Source: Candidatus Aminicenantota bacterium
Lineage (GTDB): Bacteria > Acidobacteriota > Aminicenantia > Aminicenantales > Aminicenantaceae
Assembly (NCBI GenBank): GCA_011772475.1
Contig: WVZK01000100.1
Span: 1-44,313, forward strand
Length of the DNA: 44,313 nt
Reading direction: 5' to 3'
In this document: positions 27,696 through 40,414 of the stretch, in pieces
How the letters are laid out: each line of letters opens with the position of its first letter
Numbering within the stretch: position 1 is the stretch's first letter
Program-made: the position numbers and the translations under genes
Notes under the pieces: generated by a model
What the model was told of the DNA's origin: nothing
Seen by the model: only the letters and a program-made list of their open reading frames with translations
Databases searched by the model: none

Positions 27696-27761
27696 TAAAT
27701 AAATGCAAAAGATCTTCGGATTTGGACTTCATCTGTTATGAATTTTCACATGAGGAATAAT

Positions 27762-28457
27762 ATGAGATTCGGGTTAATAGTTCCTTCCTCGAACACTACG
27801 ATGGAGGCTGAATTCTGGAGGATGGCTTCAGGATGGGCGACGGTGCATACTGGACGAATAAGACTTCAAAAGATCACGGTTGATGAGCTGGAAGAAATGG
27901 AAGATCAGATGATAGAAGCAGCAATCCGCCTTGCTGATGCAGAGGTCAATGTCATAGGCTATGGCTGCACTTCAGGAAGCCTGTTAAAGGGAAAAGATCA
28001 GGGGGGAGAGATAGAGAAAAAAATAAAAGAGAAGACCGGGATTCCTGCCGTGGCCACAGCCAAGGCAGTGATTGATGCGCTTGGTGAGCTCAGGGTAAAA
28101 AAACTATGCGTTGCCACTCCCTATATTGAGGAGATAAACGAGCTTGAGAAAAGCTTTCTTGAGCAAAATGAAATAGATGTTTTAAGAATTAAAGGCTTGG
28201 GAATAATACAAAACAGTGAAGTTGGAAGCAAAAACCCGAGCGTCGCCTATGAGCTAGCTAAAGAAGTATATGAACCAGAAGCTCAGGGGATATTCATCAG
28301 CTGTACAAACTTCAAGAGCATCGAAGCGATAGATAAGCTTGAAGGAGAACTGGGTGTACCCGTTGTATCAAGCAATACTGCAACCTTATGGGCTATGATG
28401 AAGAGAGCGAGAAATAAGAATAAGATAAAAGGATACGGAAGGCTTTTGCGCTTATAG
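27762..28457 (+). CDS. Maleate isomerase / Asp-Glu racemase superfamily enzyme
   Basis: 231 residues from the ATG at 27762, favoured over two upstream ATGs because GAGGA (27752-27756) precedes it. The fold is the Asp/Glu racemase type, with two catalytic-type cysteines in the expected places: Cys69 (GYGCTSGS) and Cys181 (ISCTNF). The N-terminal VPSSNTTMEAEF segment matches maleate cis-trans isomerases and arylmalonate decarboxylases, which bind the substrate carboxylates through Ser/Asn/Thr there. Maleate isomerase converts maleate to fumarate. The sequence does not exclude a related racemase or decarboxylase activity. It is followed by two hairpins and then a lipoprotein gene. Confidence 0.8.
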   Translation: MRFGLIVPSSNTTMEAEFWRMASGWATVHTGRIRLQKITVDELEEMEDQMIEAAIRLADAEVNVIGYGCTSGSLLKGKDQGGEIEKKIKEKTGIPAVATAKAVIDALGELRVKKLCVATPYIEEINELEKSFLEQNEIDVLRIKGLGIIQNSEVGSKNPSVAYELAKEVYEPEAQGIFISCTNFKSIEAIDKLEGELGVPVVSSNTATLWAMMKRARNKNKIKGYGRLLRL

Positions 28458-29187: not shown

Positions 29188-29216
29188 TTGACAACTAAAG
29201 TTGAAGGTCATATATT
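29188..29216 (+). promoter_or_regulatory. Sigma-70-type promoter of the acetate kinase fusion gene
   Basis: Perfect TTGACA (29188-29193), 17-bp spacer and TATATT (29211-29216), about 61 bp before the ATG. The spacer contains the small inverted repeat CAACT-AA-AGTTG (29192-29203), overlapping the -35 box, a possible repressor site. Confidence 0.55.
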
Positions 29217-29277: not shown

Positions 29278-31599
29278 ATGGAAAATATTGAGAAGTTTTT
29301 GGCGGAATTACCGTTATTTAAAAAATTTTCCCATGCAGATCTGAAAAAGTTGATAGAGAATAGTCATGTAAAAACTTTCTCTCCCCAGGAAGTGATTATC
29401 CATTTCGGCCATCCCGGGCGGTTTCTCGGAATAGTCCTGGATGGTGAAGCGGAAGCTGTGATTACCAGCAAAACAGGCGAGCGGATCAGGCTTGGAATGC
29501 TTGAGCGAGGTGATTTTCTTGGTGAAATGTCGCTCCTCACTGGCGAACCCACAAGCGCTGATGTTATAGCCTTAAAGAAATGTAATCTTTTACTAATTCC
29601 TCAGCAGACTTTTTTGACTACTGTTGCGGTTAACCCTGAAGCCGTGAAGGTTATGGCCAAAACCATAACCGATAGGCTAAAAAGCCGTCAAAAGAATGAA
29701 GAAGAGCAGACAAGGGTTGAAGATGCTTGGCAGAATCTGCCAGATCCTTACGGACTCCGGTTATCTCCCGCTATCCCAAGGAAAATCCTGGTCATAAACT
29801 GCGGAAGTTCCTCGTTGAAATACAGCTACTTTGATACTGCTCAGGAAACAAATAACCTCGAAGGCATTGTTGAGAGGATTGGTCTGGATAATTCTTGCAT
29901 TATATCCTCATCCAATAAGGGAAAGGCTACCAAAGAACTCGGCAGCGTTGGCTATGAAGAGGCATTTAAGGCTGTTATTGCTTTGCTAACCGACTCCAAA
30001 GAAGGCGTGATCAGTGATCTCAAGGAGCTCAGCGCGGTGGGTCACCGGGTTGTTCATGGTGGTGATAAGTACAGTAGCCCGGTGATAATCGATGAACAGG
30101 TTATTGAAGACATCGATAAATATTCGAGTTTGGCGCCTCTCCATAATCCGCCAAACCTAATGGCAATCAAGGAAAGCATCAAACTAATGCCAGATGTACC
30201 GCAGGTAGCTGTTTTTGATACTGGTTTTCATCAGAAAATGCCAAGACATGCTTATCTCTATGGACTTCCGTATGAATATTATGAAAAAGACCACATCCGC
30301 AGATACGGCTTCCATGGCATCTCACATAACTATGTCGCCCTTCAGGCTGCTTCTTATTTAAAACGCAATTTCCGGGAAATGAAGATTATTACCTGTCACT
30401 TAGGAAACGGTGCATCTCTCTGTGCGATTGACCACGGTCGGTCAGTGGATACCAGCATGGGATTAACACCTTTGGAAGGGCTGATAATGGGCACAAGGTG
30501 CGGTGACCTTGATCCTTCAGCAATTATTTACATTTGCAGGGAAAAAGGATTATCAATTGATGAAGTTGATGAAATCCTGAATCGCGAGAGCGGGCTTAAG
30601 GGTCTTTCAGGGATATCAAGCGACCTACGGAAGATAGAAGAGGAGGCCAACAAAGGTAATCAAAGGGCATTAATAGCTATGCATGTCTTCGGCTACCGAA
30701 TCAGAAAATACATAGGCGCCTATATGGCCGCCATAGGCGGATTGGACGCACTTGTGTTCACAGGAGGCATCGGTGAAGGGAGTGCATGGATCAGGAGTTT
30801 AGCCTGTCAGGAATTATCTCATATGGAAATCCGGATTGATAACATCCTTAATAAAACGACATCACCGGGCTCTGGTGAGGTGGGAGACATCTCGGACGAA
30901 AGCTCTCGGATTAAAGTCTTAGTTATTCCTACTGATGAGGGAAGAATGATTGCCCGCGAAACTATCCGCACCCTGGGATATCAAGATGTATCACAGGTAA
31001 TAGAAGGCCAAAAGGAGAAGAAGTTTCCTATCGAGGTATCAGCTCACCATGTTCATTTAGGACGAAATGAAATTAATGTGCTCTTCGGTTCGGAGAGTAA
31101 ATTAACTCATAGATCAGACCTTTCTCAGCCGGGCCAGTTCGCCTGTGAAGAAACAGTAAATCTTATAGGACCCAAAGGGCGAGTCGAGCGAGTGAGGATT
31201 CTTGGTCCTGAACGGAAAGAAAGCCAGGTTGAGATTTCTATGACCGAAGAGTTTAAGTTGGGTGTTAAGGCACCGATTCGCGCCTCCGGCGATCTAAAGG
31301 GCAGTCCAGGGATCACTCTCGAGGGACTAAAGGGGACGTCCAAAATACCCCAGGGAGTAATCTGTTCATTTCGGCATATTCACATGAGTCCAGAGGATGC
31401 CCTTTCCTTTGGCTTGAAGGACCGCGATATTGTTATGGTAGAAGTTAAAGGGGAACGAACGTTGATCTTCGGTGATGTCTTGGTGCGGGTCCATCCTGAT
31501 TTTCGACTGAGCATGCATATTGACACAGATGAGGCTAATGCGGCAAATATCACGACAGGAATGGAAGGGACTCTTGTTCGTGTTCAAGATCGAAGATAA
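29278..31599 (+). CDS. Trifunctional fusion: cNMP-binding-like domain, acetate kinase, PduL-type phosphotransacylase
   Basis: 773 residues. Residues ~1-135 are a CAP-type cyclic-nucleotide-binding fold (GIVLDGEAEAVI, GDFLGEMSLLTGE). Residues ~168-565 are a full acetate kinase: NCGSSSLKY (Asn174), GHRVVHGG (Arg257), FDTGFH (Asp314), HLGNGAS (His374), GTRCGDLDP (Arg407), TDEGRMIA (Glu554). Residues ~583-770 are a PduL (PTAC) phosphotransacylase with the paired metal-binding motifs AHHVHLG (590-595) and RHIHM (699-703) and a MHIDTDEANA segment. Together the catalytic parts convert acetyl-CoA plus phosphate to acetyl phosphate, then to acetate and ATP. There is no encapsulation peptide or microcompartment gene nearby. 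In the CAP-like domain the usual cyclic-phosphate arginine is Thr92, so ligand binding is uncertain. The ATG at 29278 has AGAGG upstream. It faces an adenylate cyclase gene convergently. Confidence 0.93.
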   Translation: MENIEKFLAELPLFKKFSHADLKKLIENSHVKTFSPQEVIIHFGHPGRFLGIVLDGEAEAVITSKTGERIRLGMLERGDFLGEMSLLTGEPTSADVIALKKCNLLLIPQQTFLTTVAVNPEAVKVMAKTITDRLKSRQKNEEEQTRVEDAWQNLPDPYGLRLSPAIPRKILVINCGSSSLKYSYFDTAQETNNLEGIVERIGLDNSCIISSSNKGKATKELGSVGYEEAFKAVIALLTDSKEGVISDLKELSAVGHRVVHGGDKYSSPVIIDEQVIEDIDKYSSLAPLHNPPNLMAIKESIKLMPDVPQVAVFDTGFHQKMPRHAYLYGLPYEYYEKDHIRRYGFHGISHNYVALQAASYLKRNFREMKIITCHLGNGASLCAIDHGRSVDTSMGLTPLEGLIMGTRCGDLDPSAIIYICREKGLSIDEVDEILNRESGLKGLSGISSDLRKIEEEANKGNQRALIAMHVFGYRIRKYIGAYMAAIGGLDALVFTGGIGEGSAWIRSLACQELSHMEIRIDNILNKTTSPGSGEVGDISDESSRIKVLVIPTDEGRMIARETIRTLGYQDVSQVIEGQKEKKFPIEVSAHHVHLGRNEINVLFGSESKLTHRSDLSQPGQFACEETVNLIGPKGRVERVRILGPERKESQVEISMTEEFKLGVKAPIRASGDLKGSPGITLEGLKGTSKIPQGVICSFRHIHMSPEDALSFGLKDRDIVMVEVKGERTLIFGDVLVRVHPDFRLSMHIDTDEANAANITTGMEGTLVRVQDRR

Positions 31600-31631: not shown

Positions 31632-33314
31632 TTAATCTAAGACTTCATAAGCTATAATATCTTTGCTGCTTCCTTTAACCTTCTTGGGGCCGATTTTTCT
31701 AATCTTAAATTTCCCTTTTACGTGGTTGTATGTATCTTCTCCGATGATGATTTGATTAGGCTGAGCAAGCGATTCTAATCTTGAGGCAACATTAACTGGA
31801 TTTCCGATAACAGTGTACTCCATCCGTTTGAGTGAGCCAATATTCCCAGCCACAACATTCCCAGTATTGATGCCTATCCGTATATCAAATTTTTCCCTAT
31901 GCCCAGCCTTGTCAATCATCGCTGCCAGCTCCTGTCGCATTTTAAGGGCTGCTGAAACTGCTCTTTCAGCATCGTCTTTCTTTTCTATGGGCGCTCCGAA
32001 AATAGCCATAAGGCTATCTCCTATGTATTTGTCCAATGTTCCGTCATTCTCGAAAATGATATCCGTCATCCGGGAGAAAAACTGATTCAGGAGCATGTTT
32101 ATCTCACGGGGGGGCATCTTTTCAGTGAGTTCTGTGAAACCAATAATGTCTGAGAAAAGAATCGTGGCCTTCAAATCTTTGGCTTCCATGATGTTTTCTT
32201 TTTCTTCCTGACTCGATTTTAATATCATGTCAATTACCTGAGGGGAGTGAAACCTCTCCAGCCTGCCTCTCATTCGCTCTTCTTCTCGGATCTTTTGATT
32301 GAGACTAGCCTGCTCAAGTATCATGGCCATTTGGCAACTGATTGTCTTAAGTAGTTCGAGGTCTTCTTCGGTGAATTGATTATCAATCCTTGTGCTATCT
32401 AACTGAATAACGCCGATAATTTTTTCTCTTTTCCAGAGAGGCACACACATTGCAGACCGGATTTTTTGGCCTAAAACGCTTTCGGCATGGGCTAACCTCG
32501 AATCATCCATGGCATTGGATGTAAGAAGAGCAACCTTATCTTGAATGACCTTATTGATGATCGTCTGGCTTGCTTTTATTTCTCCCTTGCTCTTTATTTT
32601 GTCATCTTTGTATTTGATAACTGCGGGTATGAACTGATTATTCTTTTCTTCATCGGTAAGGATTAAAAAGCCGTAATCAGCATCGATAACCATAAAAATG
32701 TGGTCCATTATTTTCTTAAGCAGTTCGTTAAAGTCGTGGATAGAATTCAACTGCCTGCTAATCTCATACAGGACAAAAAGAACTTTGTTCGCTCTTTCTG
32801 AGGGCAACGCCTCAGGTTTTGATTTTGCTTTCCGACTTTTCCTCTTCGATAGGGATGAAATAATTTGTTTTTTGAGTGCTTTCTTAGGCTTTGGAGAGGC
32901 TAATAATGTCTGTGAATCCTCCTGACAACTTTCTTTAGGACTGATTTTTAGTGTTTGTTGATGCCATTTTTCGTATTCGCTCTCCTTTGTCACGATAAGA
33001 GTATCAGGACGTGAGGGAGATTTTTTTTCTTTGGTCAGGAATGTCAATTTGGTATTCCCAATCTTTATCTCGTCGTCGTGTTTCAGCAGGAACTTTTGAA
33101 CAAATTTTTTATTGATCATCGTGCCGTTGTGGCTTCCAAGATCAGTTAAAACAAAGTTTTTATCTTGCTCGATTATTATGGCGTGGTAGTGGGAAACTCT
33201 TGGATCGGCCAGGACGATATCGTTATCTCTGCTGCGGCCTATGGTGGTTTTTTTCTTAGCAATCGGGAAATCAGATATTTGACCGTCTTGGCTGATGATG
33301 TTGATGATAGGCAT
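31632..33314 (-). CDS. Adenylate cyclase with FHA and GAF domains (class III)
   Basis: 560 residues, no membrane helices. Residues ~20-95 are an FHA phosphothreonine-binding domain (GRSRDND, VSHYHA, GSHNGT). A basic linker leads to a GAF domain (about 175-335). The class III cyclase domain (about 380-560) has metal-binding Asp389 (FSDIIGF) and Asp433 (DKYIGDSLM), the adenine-selecting pair Lys429/Thr501, and the transition-state Asn508/Arg512 (NPVNVASR). All key residues for converting ATP to cAMP are present. The FHA domain suggests control by a Ser/Thr kinase such as the one at 19.7 kb. It is the third gene after an FAD enzyme and a small cNMP-binding protein, and is convergent with the acetate kinase fusion. 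GGAAAGA precedes the ATG. Confidence 0.93.
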   Translation of the reverse strand: MPIINIISQDGQISDFPIAKKKTTIGRSRDNDIVLADPRVSHYHAIIIEQDKNFVLTDLGSHNGTMINKKFVQKFLLKHDDEIKIGNTKLTFLTKEKKSPSRPDTLIVTKESEYEKWHQQTLKISPKESCQEDSQTLLASPKPKKALKKQIISSLSKRKSRKAKSKPEALPSERANKVLFVLYEISRQLNSIHDFNELLKKIMDHIFMVIDADYGFLILTDEEKNNQFIPAVIKYKDDKIKSKGEIKASQTIINKVIQDKVALLTSNAMDDSRLAHAESVLGQKIRSAMCVPLWKREKIIGVIQLDSTRIDNQFTEEDLELLKTISCQMAMILEQASLNQKIREEERMRGRLERFHSPQVIDMILKSSQEEKENIMEAKDLKATILFSDIIGFTELTEKMPPREINMLLNQFFSRMTDIIFENDGTLDKYIGDSLMAIFGAPIEKKDDAERAVSAALKMRQELAAMIDKAGHREKFDIRIGINTGNVVAGNIGSLKRMEYTVIGNPVNVASRLESLAQPNQIIIGEDTYNHVKGKFKIRKIGPKKVKGSSKDIIAYEVLD

Positions 33315-33449: not shown

Positions 33450-33815
33450 TCAGGTTTTTAGTCGAGCAAGCTCACGATTCATCTCGCGAATGCGGTGTGA
33501 CATCCTTTCGACAATTCGAAAAGCCAGAGACGGGTCTTCGGTTATCCTACGAAGAAAAGTTCTTTTATCTATGGTAAGGGCTCGGACCTCTCCCAAAGCT
33601 CGGACAGTAGCAGAGCGAACATCATGCTCAAAGATAGCCATCTCACCAAAGAAATCTCCTTTGCCAAGCACAGCTAAGCGAACTTCTTTGCCGCTAATCT
33701 CTTGGATCACCTCCACCTTCCCGTCCTGGATTTCATACATACAGTCTCCTGTTTTTCCCTGGCGGATAATAACCTCGCCCTCTTGATACACTCTGCCCAA
33801 TTCACCTGTACCCAT
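33450..33815 (-). CDS. Stand-alone cyclic-nucleotide-binding domain protein
   Basis: 121 residues from the ATG at 33815, which has AGAGGA just upstream; a longer frame reaches 33866 but lacks support. Nearly the whole protein is one CAP-type domain: GDCMYEIQDGKVEVI, then the phosphate-binding cassette FFGEMAIFEHDVRSATVRA with Glu58 and the critical Arg67 both present. It should therefore bind cAMP or cGMP. There is no DNA-binding domain, so it works through a partner. It overlaps the upstream FAD-enzyme gene by 14 bases and is followed 135 bp later by the adenylate cyclase, suggesting the cyclase product is its ligand. Confidence 0.88.
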   Translation of the reverse strand: MGTGELGRVYQEGEVIIRQGKTGDCMYEIQDGKVEVIQEISGKEVRLAVLGKGDFFGEMAIFEHDVRSATVRALGEVRALTIDKRTFLRRITEDPSLAFRIVERMSHRIREMNRELARLKT

Positions 33816-35220
33816 AGGTCCTCTTCTGAAAGCGCTTTCTTTTGAAAGGAAATACAGCAACAGCAATGTTCCAGAAAAAGCGGATAAAGAAAAAAGGGTG
33901 AAACATACGCCAAAAGACTTCTTGGTAAGGTGCGCTCCCTGTTAATAAGTCCCATAAGGACATGCTCATTCTTTTGCGCCCACTCTTATTTTTTTGCTCC
34001 ATGATGACCATGCGAAAGACGGCACGTCGGGCAAAACGTACCTTCTGAACAAGGCCAACAGCAAAAAATATTATCTTTCCAATTCTGTTGTCTTTTTCAA
34101 TTCTCTTGCAAGCCGGCCAGAAATGTTTCTTGAAGTCATGAGCTGAAATACCTTCGAAAATTGCGGTGGTAGCAGCTGCTTTGGCTGTACAGTAGGCACC
34201 CCCGATCCCATCCTTATATAACCTGCTCACTCCGCAATCTCCGATGAAAACTATCCTGTCGGAAAAAGCCTTCTTAGATCCCTTGATGTTTATTTGGGGA
34301 TAACATTGACAGGCTTTATGGTTCATGTTCCAATCGGGAGGCACACAACTTTTCACCTCTGGATTTTCAAGAAAGGACTGCACAAGCTCCTTATTAATCT
34401 TTTTCCCCAGCATGCATACTGTCGCGTAGTCTCCCTTGGGGATAAATGCTGCAAATTCCAGCCTCGGTATTTTAAGAAGGAAAGCATGCATGGAGCTTCC
34501 CAGGCAATTCTCCACGCCTTCCTCGCCTAAATAATACTCGCAGATGAAAGTTTTTGTGGTGTCAGGGGGGATGTAGTCTGTATTTTGGAAAAGCTTAATT
34601 GTTGGAGAGTTTACTCCAGCGGCAACCACCAAAAGGTCATATTCCTTTTCCAATCCAGTCGAGGTTTTGATCTGAGGCCACTTGTCATCCCAACCAATAT
34701 CTTTAATCCTCGCCTGTATTAAATGTGCGCCCTTTTCCATGGCCAGGTCCTGCAAATAGCCGTCAAAGCTGCCCCATTTTTTCTCTTTTATACCGCGCGG
34801 CCCAGCCCCTCTGTAGACAGCCCCAATTCTTTTTTCGTGGAGAGGAGTATCAATTACTACTCTGCCAACGTCCATATGCAGGGTATAGGATTCTATTCCC
34901 CTTTGGACGACCGAGGGTGGTAAATTTATTCCTTCTGTGGCTAAAGTTTGCACCAGCGATTCGGAAATAATTCCGCCGCACATATTGCACCCGGCTGGAG
35001 CTGGGGCAGAAAAATCGCGGGATTCAAAGATATCTAATTGAATATTTATTCCAACCCTTTTTGCCAGATCAAGGAGAAAGTAGCTGAAAAAAGAACCCGC
35101 TGGTCCGCTGCCGATAACTCCTACTCGAGAATTGTTTTCCAGATTAAGTCCAGATGTTTTAAGTTTGATGTGCAGCCCATGCTTTTTAGAGTCGAACTTT
35201 CTCGTTTTATGAATTTGCAA
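33802..35220 (-). CDS. FAD-dependent oxidoreductase, geranylgeranyl reductase-like
   Basis: 472 residues. The dinucleotide-binding motif GSGPAGSF lies at residues 37-44, and the FAD-closing motif FIGDCGVSRLYKDGIGGAYCTAKAA at about 315-340 (quoted only in part here as GDCGVSRLYKDGIGGAY). A Cys-rich PAGCNMCGGI segment follows the first motif, as in GGR-type flavoproteins. The C-terminal ~70 residues are basic and aromatic-hydrophobic (FHPFFFIRFFWNIAVAVFPF), suggesting membrane contact. Such enzymes reduce isoprenoid chains of lipids or quinones; the substrate here is unknown. The start is a TTG with GGAG 6 bases upstream, downstream of a promoter at 35314-35343. It heads the operon with the cNMP-binding protein and the adenylate cyclase. 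Confidence 0.8.
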   Translation of the reverse strand: MQIHKTRKFDSKKHGLHIKLKTSGLNLENNSRVGVIGSGPAGSFFSYFLLDLAKRVGINIQLDIFESRDFSAPAPAGCNMCGGIISESLVQTLATEGINLPPSVVQRGIESYTLHMDVGRVVIDTPLHEKRIGAVYRGAGPRGIKEKKWGSFDGYLQDLAMEKGAHLIQARIKDIGWDDKWPQIKTSTGLEKEYDLLVVAAGVNSPTIKLFQNTDYIPPDTTKTFICEYYLGEEGVENCLGSSMHAFLLKIPRLEFAAFIPKGDYATVCMLGKKINKELVQSFLENPEVKSCVPPDWNMNHKACQCYPQINIKGSKKAFSDRIVFIGDCGVSRLYKDGIGGAYCTAKAAATTAIFEGISAHDFKKHFWPACKRIEKDNRIGKIIFFAVGLVQKVRFARRAVFRMVIMEQKNKSGRKRMSMSLWDLLTGSAPYQEVFWRMFHPFFFIRFFWNIAVAVFPFKRKRFQKRTYGYR

Positions 35221-37573: not shown

Positions 37574-40414
37574 ATGAGAGAAAAGATCCTAAAAAGCCTG
37601 GCCCACTGGCATACCTCCCATCCCTGGAGGATGGCGCTGATTGTTTTGCTTCTAACTGTTATTTTTGGTGCTTTTGCCGGGCAGCTGAGCGTTACCACGC
37701 GCACCTCGGATTTGCTGCCAGAGCGTGATCCGAAAGTCATCCAATTTAATAAGATAATCGATGAATTCGCCACAGCCACAAGCCTTATCGTGGTTGTTCA
37801 AGGCGAAGAAAAACGCATCAAGGAGTTTGCAGATAAGCTCGCCCCTCAAATTTTAGAGACGAGAGATACAAGCGGAGATGATTCATTCCAAAGGCAAATC
37901 GACAAGCTTCAAAAAAAGATAGAAAAATTAAAAGAAAAGGGGAATGAGTCGAAAATATCAGAGCTTCAATCCGAAATCAAAACGTTGCAATCTCAGATGA
38001 ATTTTAAACTGTTTCAGCGCGTTGATTATAAAATGGATATCGATTTTTTAAGAAATCATATGCTGATGCTTGTTAAAGAAGATGATTTAAAAAACATGAA
38101 GGATGTTTTCATGGATCCCAACTTGATAGGTTTGCTGACAAATCTCAATAACTCGATGGAAAAGGAGTACGTCGGTCGGGAAGATTCGCTCTCAACCCGG
38201 GAGAAAGAAGACAGTGCAGTATCGTTCTTGGAGGGGATTCAAAATCTGGTTCTCACCCTACAAAAGACAACAGGCGGGGGAGATATCTCAGATGAAGAAA
38301 TAGAGATAGCTGTTGATAAGCTTCTTTTCGGCGAACCTTATGCCCTTTCCTATGATAAAAAGGCCCTTATTTTAAACGCTATTCCCAACTTCACCTTGAT
38401 GGATAGGAATTTTATCATGAGCTCAACGGTAGCTGTTCAGGCGGTTGTGGATAATTTATTAAAGGATTTTCCTGACGTTGAGGCAGGGCTGTGCGGAGCG
38501 ATACCTAAGGAGCATGATGAACAGATCTATGCTCTGAGGAGTTTTGGGTATACTACAGTGATTGCTTTTATAGCCATTTTGCTCCTGCTGATGATTTCCT
38601 TCAGGATGTGGGTAGCTCCAGTTTTCGCCATAATAAATCTTATGTTTGGTGTGTTATGGGCCCTCGGAAGCGCAGCTATTGTGGTCGGGCAGCTAAACAT
38701 GATTACTTCCATGCTGGCTGTGATAGTTCTTGGACTGGGTATTGACTTTTCTATCCATCTTATTTCCGGATTCACAGAAAGACGTGCTGCTGGAGATACG
38801 ATAGCCATGGCCATGGAGAGCACATTTTTAAAGACTGGCAAAGGGATTTTGACAGGAGCAATGACTACAGCTTGTGCCTTCTATGCTCTGGTCATCAGTT
38901 CTTCACGAGCCATGAAAGAGATGGGATTGGTCACGGGAACAGGCCTTGTGGCGATTCTTTTAGCCACTATGCTCTGCTTGCCAGTCATGCTTGTGTGGAG
39001 AGAACGTCTCCGAGATAGAAGGCGTGAGAGAAGAAAAGGAGTGGAGAAATTCGTCGAGCGAGATATCTCCTTTCGTTTTCTGGGACGCGCGGGAGAATGG
39101 CTTAGTAAAAATTACGTCTTATCAATAGCCGCGTCGATTTTTATGAGTGCCTTACTTATTTGGTCAGCATCAAGAATCCGCTGGGACTATGATTATAGGA
39201 ATATGGAACCGGATGTCCCTTCGATCTGGCTGCTGGATACAATAATGGAAAAGTTTGATTTGAGCATGGATTATGCTTTGGTTTTAGCCGATGACGTCAA
39301 CGAATCCTATGAACTGTCAGAAAAGTACCGTGAACTGGGTTCAGTGGCCATAACTGAGGATATCTCAGTCTTTGTCCCTTCCGAAGAGCAGCAGCAGAAA
39401 AGGATTCCTCATATAAACGAGGTCCTGGAAAGAATCCGATCCGCTCGTGTAAAGCAAGCAGTGCTCCCGGGCGAGTTATCCACTTTGAAAGATGAGATAG
39501 GTCGGCTGGAGATGAACATCATGGAAATGCAGGATATGGCTTTCATAGGCGGACAGGACAAGGTAGATAATAAGTGCAAAGATATCGTGGGTGATCCTGA
39601 GAACCCGAATTCAAGGAATGTAATCAAGGAATTGCTACAAAAGTTGGATGCGGATGTTTTGGCAAGCGCCCGAGGATTCTCAAATTTTCAGCAGAATTTC
39701 GGGCCCTATTTTAAAGAATCTGTGATCAAGATGAGCTCGACCGAGTCCATTCAGTTGGAAGAGCTTCCTGTTACCATTCTGGATCGCTACAGCAATAGAA
39801 CCAGGGATCAATTTCTGATAACAGTCTATCCAGCCGGGAGTATTTATGATGGGGAGTTTCTTAATAAGTTCGCTGCGGATGTAGAAAGGGTGAGCAAAAA
39901 AGCAACTGGTATGCCCCCATTATTTGTTGCCCTTCTCAAAATATTCGGCCGTGACGGACGAAACGCGATCATATTGACTCTGGTCGTTGTATTTTTTCTG
40001 CTGTGGGCTGATTTTCGTAAACCAGGTCACGCCTTGATGGCAATGATTCCCCTAGCTTTGGGTGTGTTCTGGATGGTCGGCCTGATGAACCTGACTGGCA
40101 TCCAGCTTTCTATGATGAGTGTCATGGGCCTTCCGTTGATTATCGGCATCGGTATTGATGATGGAGTGCACATCCTGCATCGATGGAGAAGTGAAGGAAA
40201 GGATAAAATTTGGATTGTCTTCTCCAGCACTGGAAAAGCTATTTTTCTCACTTCGCTGACGACGATGTTCGCCTTCGGCTCATTGATGTTCTCTGCTTTC
40301 CCTGGTTGGGGTATGTTTGGAGGCTCGCTCTTCCTTGGAGTGGCAGCCTGCTTCCTGACAACTGTAATCATATTGCCAGGAATTCTGGGAGTGATTGAGA
40401 GAAGAAAAAGCTAG
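37574..40414 (+). CDS. RND/MMPL-family exporter
   Basis: 946 residues in two homologous halves. Each half starts with one transmembrane helix, then a large periplasmic loop, then five helices. The conserved helix-4 motifs GLGIDFSIH (first half) and GIGIDDGVH (second half) carry the proton-relay aspartates. The first periplasmic loop contains a coiled coil (about residues 105-145, QIDKLQKKIEKLKEKGNESK). This architecture matches MMPL/HpnN-like lipid exporters and not drug-efflux AcrB types (about 1,030 aa). It probably moves a lipid or lipid-linked molecule out of the inner membrane, handing it to the LolA-like protein and the outer-membrane barrel encoded upstream. A GGAAAGGAGAGG precedes the ATG. 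Confidence 0.9.
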   Translation: MREKILKSLAHWHTSHPWRMALIVLLLTVIFGAFAGQLSVTTRTSDLLPERDPKVIQFNKIIDEFATATSLIVVVQGEEKRIKEFADKLAPQILETRDTSGDDSFQRQIDKLQKKIEKLKEKGNESKISELQSEIKTLQSQMNFKLFQRVDYKMDIDFLRNHMLMLVKEDDLKNMKDVFMDPNLIGLLTNLNNSMEKEYVGREDSLSTREKEDSAVSFLEGIQNLVLTLQKTTGGGDISDEEIEIAVDKLLFGEPYALSYDKKALILNAIPNFTLMDRNFIMSSTVAVQAVVDNLLKDFPDVEAGLCGAIPKEHDEQIYALRSFGYTTVIAFIAILLLLMISFRMWVAPVFAIINLMFGVLWALGSAAIVVGQLNMITSMLAVIVLGLGIDFSIHLISGFTERRAAGDTIAMAMESTFLKTGKGILTGAMTTACAFYALVISSSRAMKEMGLVTGTGLVAILLATMLCLPVMLVWRERLRDRRRERRKGVEKFVERDISFRFLGRAGEWLSKNYVLSIAASIFMSALLIWSASRIRWDYDYRNMEPDVPSIWLLDTIMEKFDLSMDYALVLADDVNESYELSEKYRELGSVAITEDISVFVPSEEQQQKRIPHINEVLERIRSARVKQAVLPGELSTLKDEIGRLEMNIMEMQDMAFIGGQDKVDNKCKDIVGDPENPNSRNVIKELLQKLDADVLASARGFSNFQQNFGPYFKESVIKMSSTESIQLEELPVTILDRYSNRTRDQFLITVYPAGSIYDGEFLNKFAADVERVSKKATGMPPLFVALLKIFGRDGRNAIILTLVVVFFLLWADFRKPGHALMAMIPLALGVFWMVGLMNLTGIQLSMMSVMGLPLIIGIGIDDGVHILHRWRSEGKDKIWIVFSSTGKAIFLTSLTTMFAFGSLMFSAFPGWGMFGGSLFLGVAACFLTTVIILPGILGVIERRKS

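Follow-up and report, generated by a model that had tools for sequence, protein, structure and literature searches.

The DNA analysed here (the window; 44,313 nucleotides, contig WVZK01000100.1 of assembly GCA_011772475.1, Candidatus Aminicenantota bacterium) carries at 29278..31599 on the forward strand a gene in which a cyclic nucleotide-binding (CNB) domain, an acetate kinase (AckA) and a PduL-type phosphotransacylase are read as one polypeptide. The question raised by this locus is whether such a protein is a working enzyme, and what its N-terminal domain would respond to. In anaerobes, the Pta-AckA pair forms acetate in a step that is central to energy yield and that determines the level of acetyl phosphate. 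To our knowledge, little has been established about direct control of this pair by small molecules. Our preferred reading, at a probability of roughly 55%, is a bifunctional AckA-PduL enzyme with a regulatory CNB domain whose pocket has left the standard cyclic-phosphate chemistry. With a single-chain AckA-PduL that has its own sensor, is conserved in about ten phyla and has apparently passed from one to another, control and channelling could naturally be tested in a single gene.

The gene consists of one open frame of 773 codons with an ATG start. Pfam domains were placed in the order cNMP_binding (residues 32-115), Acetate_kinase (169-560) and PTAC (584-758) with scores far past the cut-offs, and NCBIfam profiles agreed with these calls. 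The AlphaFold2 model of the 773-aa protein had a mean pLDDT of 80.6 and a pTM of 0.74, with low confidence at AckA residues 379-411, and was matched by Foldseek to acetate kinases, PduL and the CNB domains of PKA and PKG. A promoter-like site, TTGACA-17-TATATT, lies 5' of the gene (29188..29216, forward strand); it is a consensus match only (11 of 12 positions), and such sites were no more frequent around the gene than in shuffled sequence.

Scanning of genomes and a search within the taxonomic family of the window gave 23 full-length three-domain loci, which were reduced to 21 distinct proteins because two pairs were apparently one gene reached twice. The source genomes were mostly metagenome bins. 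The other 20 proteins were 46-83% identical to the window protein and came from Aminicenantes, Fischeribacteriota, Planctomycetota, Spirochaetota, Fibrobacterota, Verrucomicrobiota, Hydrogenedentes, Bdellovibrionota, Thermodesulfobacteriota, Myxococcota and Pseudomonadota, about ten phyla overall. Two-domain AckA-PduL relatives without a CNB domain were found at 61 loci. Within the phylum of the window the gene was patchy, with PTAC in 14 of 396 genomes; the fusion was carried by 7 of 38 genomes of the family and by none of the four genomes of the same genus. A deltaproteobacterial relative (59% identity; L082:5881-7104) is a truncated or broken copy whose open frame holds only residues 406-772.

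For phylogeny, the two enzyme domains of the 21 three-domain proteins were placed on a tree with those of 32 among the 61 two-domain relatives. These 32 lay apart from the three-domain set with the exceptions of L020 and L027, and the three-domain label needed two changes on the tree. Constraining the three-domain proteins to a single clade was not rejected (p-AU 0.567; the best constrained tree had a slightly better fit than the unconstrained one), and constraining the Aminicenantes proteins to a single clade was rejected (p-AU 0.0004). This rejection, together with the 67-69% identity between the window protein and its homologues in Brocadiia and Fischerbacteria, suggests that the three-domain gene was transferred between phyla. 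A single addition of the CNB domain followed by such transfer would fit these results.

The acetate kinase domain (residues 169-560; 29782..30957, forward strand) was identified with PF00871 (5.6e-149; profile positions 1-392 of 392; 496.5 bits against a cut-off of 22) and TIGR00016 (490 bits against 293). It is a full-length domain, like the acetate kinases 1g99 and 2iir, with approximately 48-51% identity in the fold alignments (Foldseek to 1g99, E 1.8e-40); unlike them, it sits between a CNB and a PTAC domain. In alignment with the Methanosarcina enzyme 1g99, N174, R257, D314, H374, R407 and E554 corresponded to N7, R91, D148, H208, R241 and E384, and H346 and N377 to H180 and N211, so that the catalytic set of the window protein is complete. 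It was also complete in 16 of the 21 three-domain proteins. Asn377 was replaced by Ser in L007 and L019. The kinase site was changed in L017:6001-8316 (N174R, H346Q, N377G), L013:5956-8277 (N377H) and L018:5974-8295 (N377I, E554D), all three of which kept the PduL site fully, a pattern reminiscent of ongoing loss of the kinase half.

The PduL-type phosphotransacylase domain (residues 584-758; 31027..31551, forward strand) was identified with PF06130 (4.9e-75; profile positions 1-175 of 176; 251.6 bits against a cut-off of 25) and PRK15070 (255.6 bits against 209). Both HxH motifs are present (H591/H593 and H700/H702). Six metal ligands and Arg103 have been reported for PduL (PMC4784909); on alignment with the Rhodopseudomonas palustris structure 5cuo (1.4 A fold match), H48, H50, E109, H157, H159 and H204 corresponded to H591, H593, E652, H700, H702 and H747, and Arg103 to R646. 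With Q650, S670, R737 and N754 also in place, the domain shares all metal and substrate residues with 5cuo, and these active-site residues were invariant in all 21 three-domain proteins. Unlike 5cuo, the domain is fused to AckA. PduL homologues fused to Ack have been described without the microcompartment encapsulation peptide (PMC4784909), a peptide not expected here, and no microcompartment genes were noticed. The first-pass annotation, which had described a single unbroken three-part polypeptide with a complete kinase active site and a PduL-type domain with both metal-binding His motifs, was borne out on each of these points by the frame, the domain calls and the alignments, and the domain-architecture search that it set as a check returned the same order in all 21 full-length proteins.

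From these sequences we infer that both enzyme domains are catalytically active. The PduL half would interconvert acyl-CoA and Pi with acyl-phosphate and CoA, and the AckA half would interconvert acyl-phosphate and ADP with the free acid and ATP; acetyl would be the main acyl group. Channelling of the acyl phosphate between the two sites is possible. The three-part arrangement had been put forward as undescribed, which seems to hold for one part of it, the CNB addition. The occurrence of PF06130 in proteins of several domains, most of them carrying an Ack annotation, was reported by Erbilgin et al. in 2016, with substrate channelling suggested as the purpose of the fusion (PMC4784909). The AckA-PduL fusion as such was therefore rejected as a novelty, given that report and the 61 two-domain loci found here; these fusions have the same two enzymes, order and residues as the window protein and differ from it in having no N-terminal CNB domain. 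For the CNB addition, a literature search covering few subscription papers or preprints showed, among the papers listed, none on the CNB-AckA-PduL architecture and none pairing "acetate kinase" with "cyclic nucleotide-binding domain". The CNB-headed version is conserved and apparently horizontally mobile, and is provisionally regarded as undescribed.

The remaining question concerns the CNB-type domain itself (residues 1-138; 29278..29691, forward strand; PF00027, 2.7e-19), which was modelled confidently and matched by Foldseek to the CNB domains of PKA and PKG. Its phosphate-binding cassette, FLGEMSLLTGEPTSADVI (residues 80-97; 29515..29568), is atypical; it aligned gaplessly to PKG cassettes such as FGERALLYDEPRSATI and has Thr92 at the position of the cassette Arg, the residue that contacts and neutralises the cyclic phosphate, and Asp95 at that of the usual Thr/Ser. 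Of the CAP-type cNMP-binding fold claimed at first pass, the CNB fold was upheld and the CAP type was not, the domain aligning without gaps to the PKA/PKG type and having neither a helix-turn-helix nor the cassette Arg. Among the 21 three-domain proteins the Arg position was occupied by Thr (14), Leu (2), Ala (2), Ile, Ser or Asn (one each) and never by Arg. Position 95 was Asp, Asn or Glu in 20, and the Glu that contacts the ribose 2'-OH (Glu83) was kept in 19. In a chosen subset of related sequences, the other CNB domains encoded by these genomes, that of the window included, Arg was the commonest residue at this position (about 29 of 45), a contrast to be taken as descriptive rather than statistical. 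The dN/dS of the fused domain was 0.095-0.25 in pairs whose synonymous change was unsaturated, which indicates purifying selection; it exceeded that of the enzyme domains in every comparable pair, and the CNB domain thus evolves somewhat faster. Being under purifying selection, the domain looks re-specialised rather than decayed. On its residues it fits neither of the known classes, the canonical cyclic-nucleotide type or the trypanosome nucleoside type.

A candidate source of cyclic nucleotide lies immediately beyond the fusion gene. An FHA-GAF-class III nucleotide cyclase (31632..33314, reverse strand; PF00498, GAF, PF00211) is placed tail-to-tail with it, 32 bases past the fusion stop. The catalytic domain aligned to that of its closest solved relative, Pseudomonas aeruginosa CyaB (3r5g), through FSDIIGFT, DKYIGDS and YTVIGNPVNVASR, and the metal Asp pair, the Lys and the Asn/Arg pattern are present. 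We take the cyclase to be of the Lys/Thr class IIIb type and its product, hence, to be cAMP. Two further genes on the reverse strand complete a cassette, namely a small stand-alone CNB protein (33450..33866; PF00027, 1.4e-24) with the canonical cassette FFGEMAIFEHDVRSATV, Arg included, and, as the first gene, a geranylgeranyl-reductase-like oxidoreductase (33802..35220; TIGR02032, 9.2e-12, under its cut-off), which is a conserved neighbour. The position of the small CNB gene upstream of the cyclase was also conserved at L004, L170, L173 and L108. The cyclase adjoined the fusion gene in five of the seven fusion-bearing Aminicenantes genomes, being tail-to-tail in the window, G408 and G427 and co-directional in G415 (L004, with a 3-base gap) and G406 (L005); it was not beside the fusion gene in G405 and G401. 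The cassette was also found without a fusion gene (G399, L108). That the two are neighbours in either of two orientations speaks for a functional link between the cassette and the fusion gene. The simplest form of such a link would have the small, Arg-bearing CNB protein as the receptor of cAMP; any contact of this protein with the fusion enzyme is speculative. In the loci compared outside Aminicenantes, neither conserved partner genes nor a cyclase homologue was found beside the fusion gene, and the neighbours varied (secretion ATPases, pyruvate kinase, serine dehydratase, protein kinase). A diverged second cyclase, 63% identical, is encoded together with a CNB gene elsewhere in the window genome (G000:C108:29155-31747).

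In the model of the first-pass annotation, cAMP (or cGMP) from the neighbouring cyclase would bind the fused CNB domain and switch acetate formation on or off. We regard this as the strongest of the alternatives and nonetheless as unlikely. It draws on the recurrent cyclase adjacency just described, including the 3-base co-directional gap, on retention of the ribose-binding Glu83, and on a precedent for control of an enzyme by a CNB domain in mycobacterial Pat (MtKat/MsKat; PMC5861322). Pat, like the window protein, carries an N-terminal CNB domain on an enzyme of acetyl metabolism; it is a CNB-GNAT acetyltransferase that binds cAMP, whereas the window protein has no cassette Arg and an unrelated enzyme. 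The missing Arg in 21 of 21 proteins and the usually acidic residue at position 95 speak against the model, as do the lack of an adjoining cyclase in G405, in G401 and in the loci compared outside Aminicenantes, and the presence next door of a small CNB protein that, with its Arg, is the better candidate for a cAMP receptor. Further evidence against the model comes from the Bdellovibrio CNB-EAL phosphodiesterase Bd1971 (PMC6717892), a bacterial enzyme with an N-terminal CNB domain and a cassette, FGEMALIDNQNRSA, similar to that of the window protein. Unlike the window CNB, Bd1971 keeps the Arg; it binds cAMP, and its R67D mutation at this position raised c-di-GMP in the same way as loss of the enzyme. 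Absence of the Arg does not, however, suffice to show that cAMP binding is lost, because a mammalian RI-alpha mutant at this position, in a statement quoted within PMC6440977, kept its activation with an EC50 only 5-fold weaker. Control by cyclic nucleotides is the weakest part of the original claim, the pocket giving it no support.

Only slightly behind in plausibility, and likewise improbable, is a reading of the CNB domain as a ligand-free structural part, which would sense nothing and instead dimerise, anchor or co-localise the enzyme, the small CNB protein being one possible partner. A degenerate binding site and the faster evolution of this domain relative to the enzyme domains are compatible with it, and CNB domains also occur in Family 2b encapsulins (PMC8049743). 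The altered pocket, however, shows no free drift and holds a conserved pattern of its own (GE, T-x-A-D), as would be expected of a site that binds a partner. In Verrucomicrobium sp. BvORR106 a CNB-fumarase C fusion of 618 aa (L014:4071-5927) lies directly 5' of the CNB-AckA-PduL gene, as if the CNB domain were a shared tag; against this, the fumarase fusion was found once and has no shared motif. Its cassette, SPHATSATA, is likewise without Arg, and the genes downstream at this locus are a DUF1269 gene and one with a weak Sdh_cyt match. No further fusion of a CNB domain to a central enzyme was recognised among the CNB proteins inspected (part of the hits) in ten genomes. On this inspection, and because the single CNB-fumarase has a different cassette, the idea of a CNB tag common to several central enzymes was rejected.

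Sensing of a nucleoside (inosine, guanosine or adenosine), as in the cAMP-independent PKA regulatory subunit of trypanosomes, is considerably less probable again. Apart from AckA and PduL structures, the best fold matches included 6hyi, 6h4g and 6ftf, all nucleoside-binding PKA subunits, which a sequence search also retrieved, and Thr318 of TbPKAR corresponds to Thr92. In kinetoplastid PKA regulatory subunits, as in the window CNB, the cassette Arg is replaced by a neutral Thr in a non-canonical cAMP site (PMC10959531, PMC6440977), and the ligand of the trypanosome protein is a purine nucleoside (PMC10959531). Nucleoside binding by TbPKAR depends on Glu311, however, and the residue at 318 did not significantly influence the response to inosine (PMC10959531). 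The residue equivalent to Glu311 (Ala202 in PKA RI-alpha) is Ser85 in the window protein and Ala, Ser or Pro across the three-domain proteins, and the fold ranking is explained by general CNB similarity; nucleoside sensing was downgraded because the Glu that lets the trypanosome subunit bind nucleosides is missing. An artefact of chance, assembly or annotation joining separate genes, for which nothing speaks other than the draft state of the assembly, is ruled out for practical purposes by the identical domain order in 21 distinct homologues from independent assemblies, including two single-contig genomes (G408, G415), which makes the fusion no assembly accident.

What is favoured is thus a bifunctional enzyme whose N-terminal CNB fold would serve as a regulatory module, either allosteric or oligomerising, with a re-specialised pocket whose ligand in the cell is unlikely to be cAMP or cGMP in the customary binding mode. 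Regulation by the domain and the unusual ligand are inferred, whereas the sequences themselves establish the domain order, the complete catalytic residues, the spread over about ten phyla, the missing cassette Arg and the purifying selection on the CNB domain. A bolder form of this reading, which we consider tentative and short of even odds, is that the proteins constitute an undescribed, widespread family in which the CNB domain has switched its ligand, responds to some metabolite that is not a cyclic nucleotide and directly gates the acetyl-CoA/acetate/ATP node. Orphan CNB domains with altered pockets have already yielded one surprise, that of trypanosome PKA.

The metabolic setting was examined in the window assembly, which is 87.6% complete. 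No second AckA, no second PTAC and no PTA_PTB match above the cut-off was found in it, and the organism probably relies on the fusion for its AckA-phosphotransacylase route. Several matches of the pyruvate:ferredoxin-oxidoreductase type were present. The fusion need not be the only ATP-yielding route to acetate, since the genome also encodes a protein resembling ADP-forming acetate-CoA ligases, with a score above the TIGR02717 cut-off, and the assembly is incomplete. Elsewhere in the window, an arylmalonate decarboxylase/EutA-like protein is encoded at 27738-28457, under both curated equivalog cut-offs, and an HpnN-like RND transporter, under its curated cut-off, is encoded at 37574-40414, 3' of a LolA-like gene.
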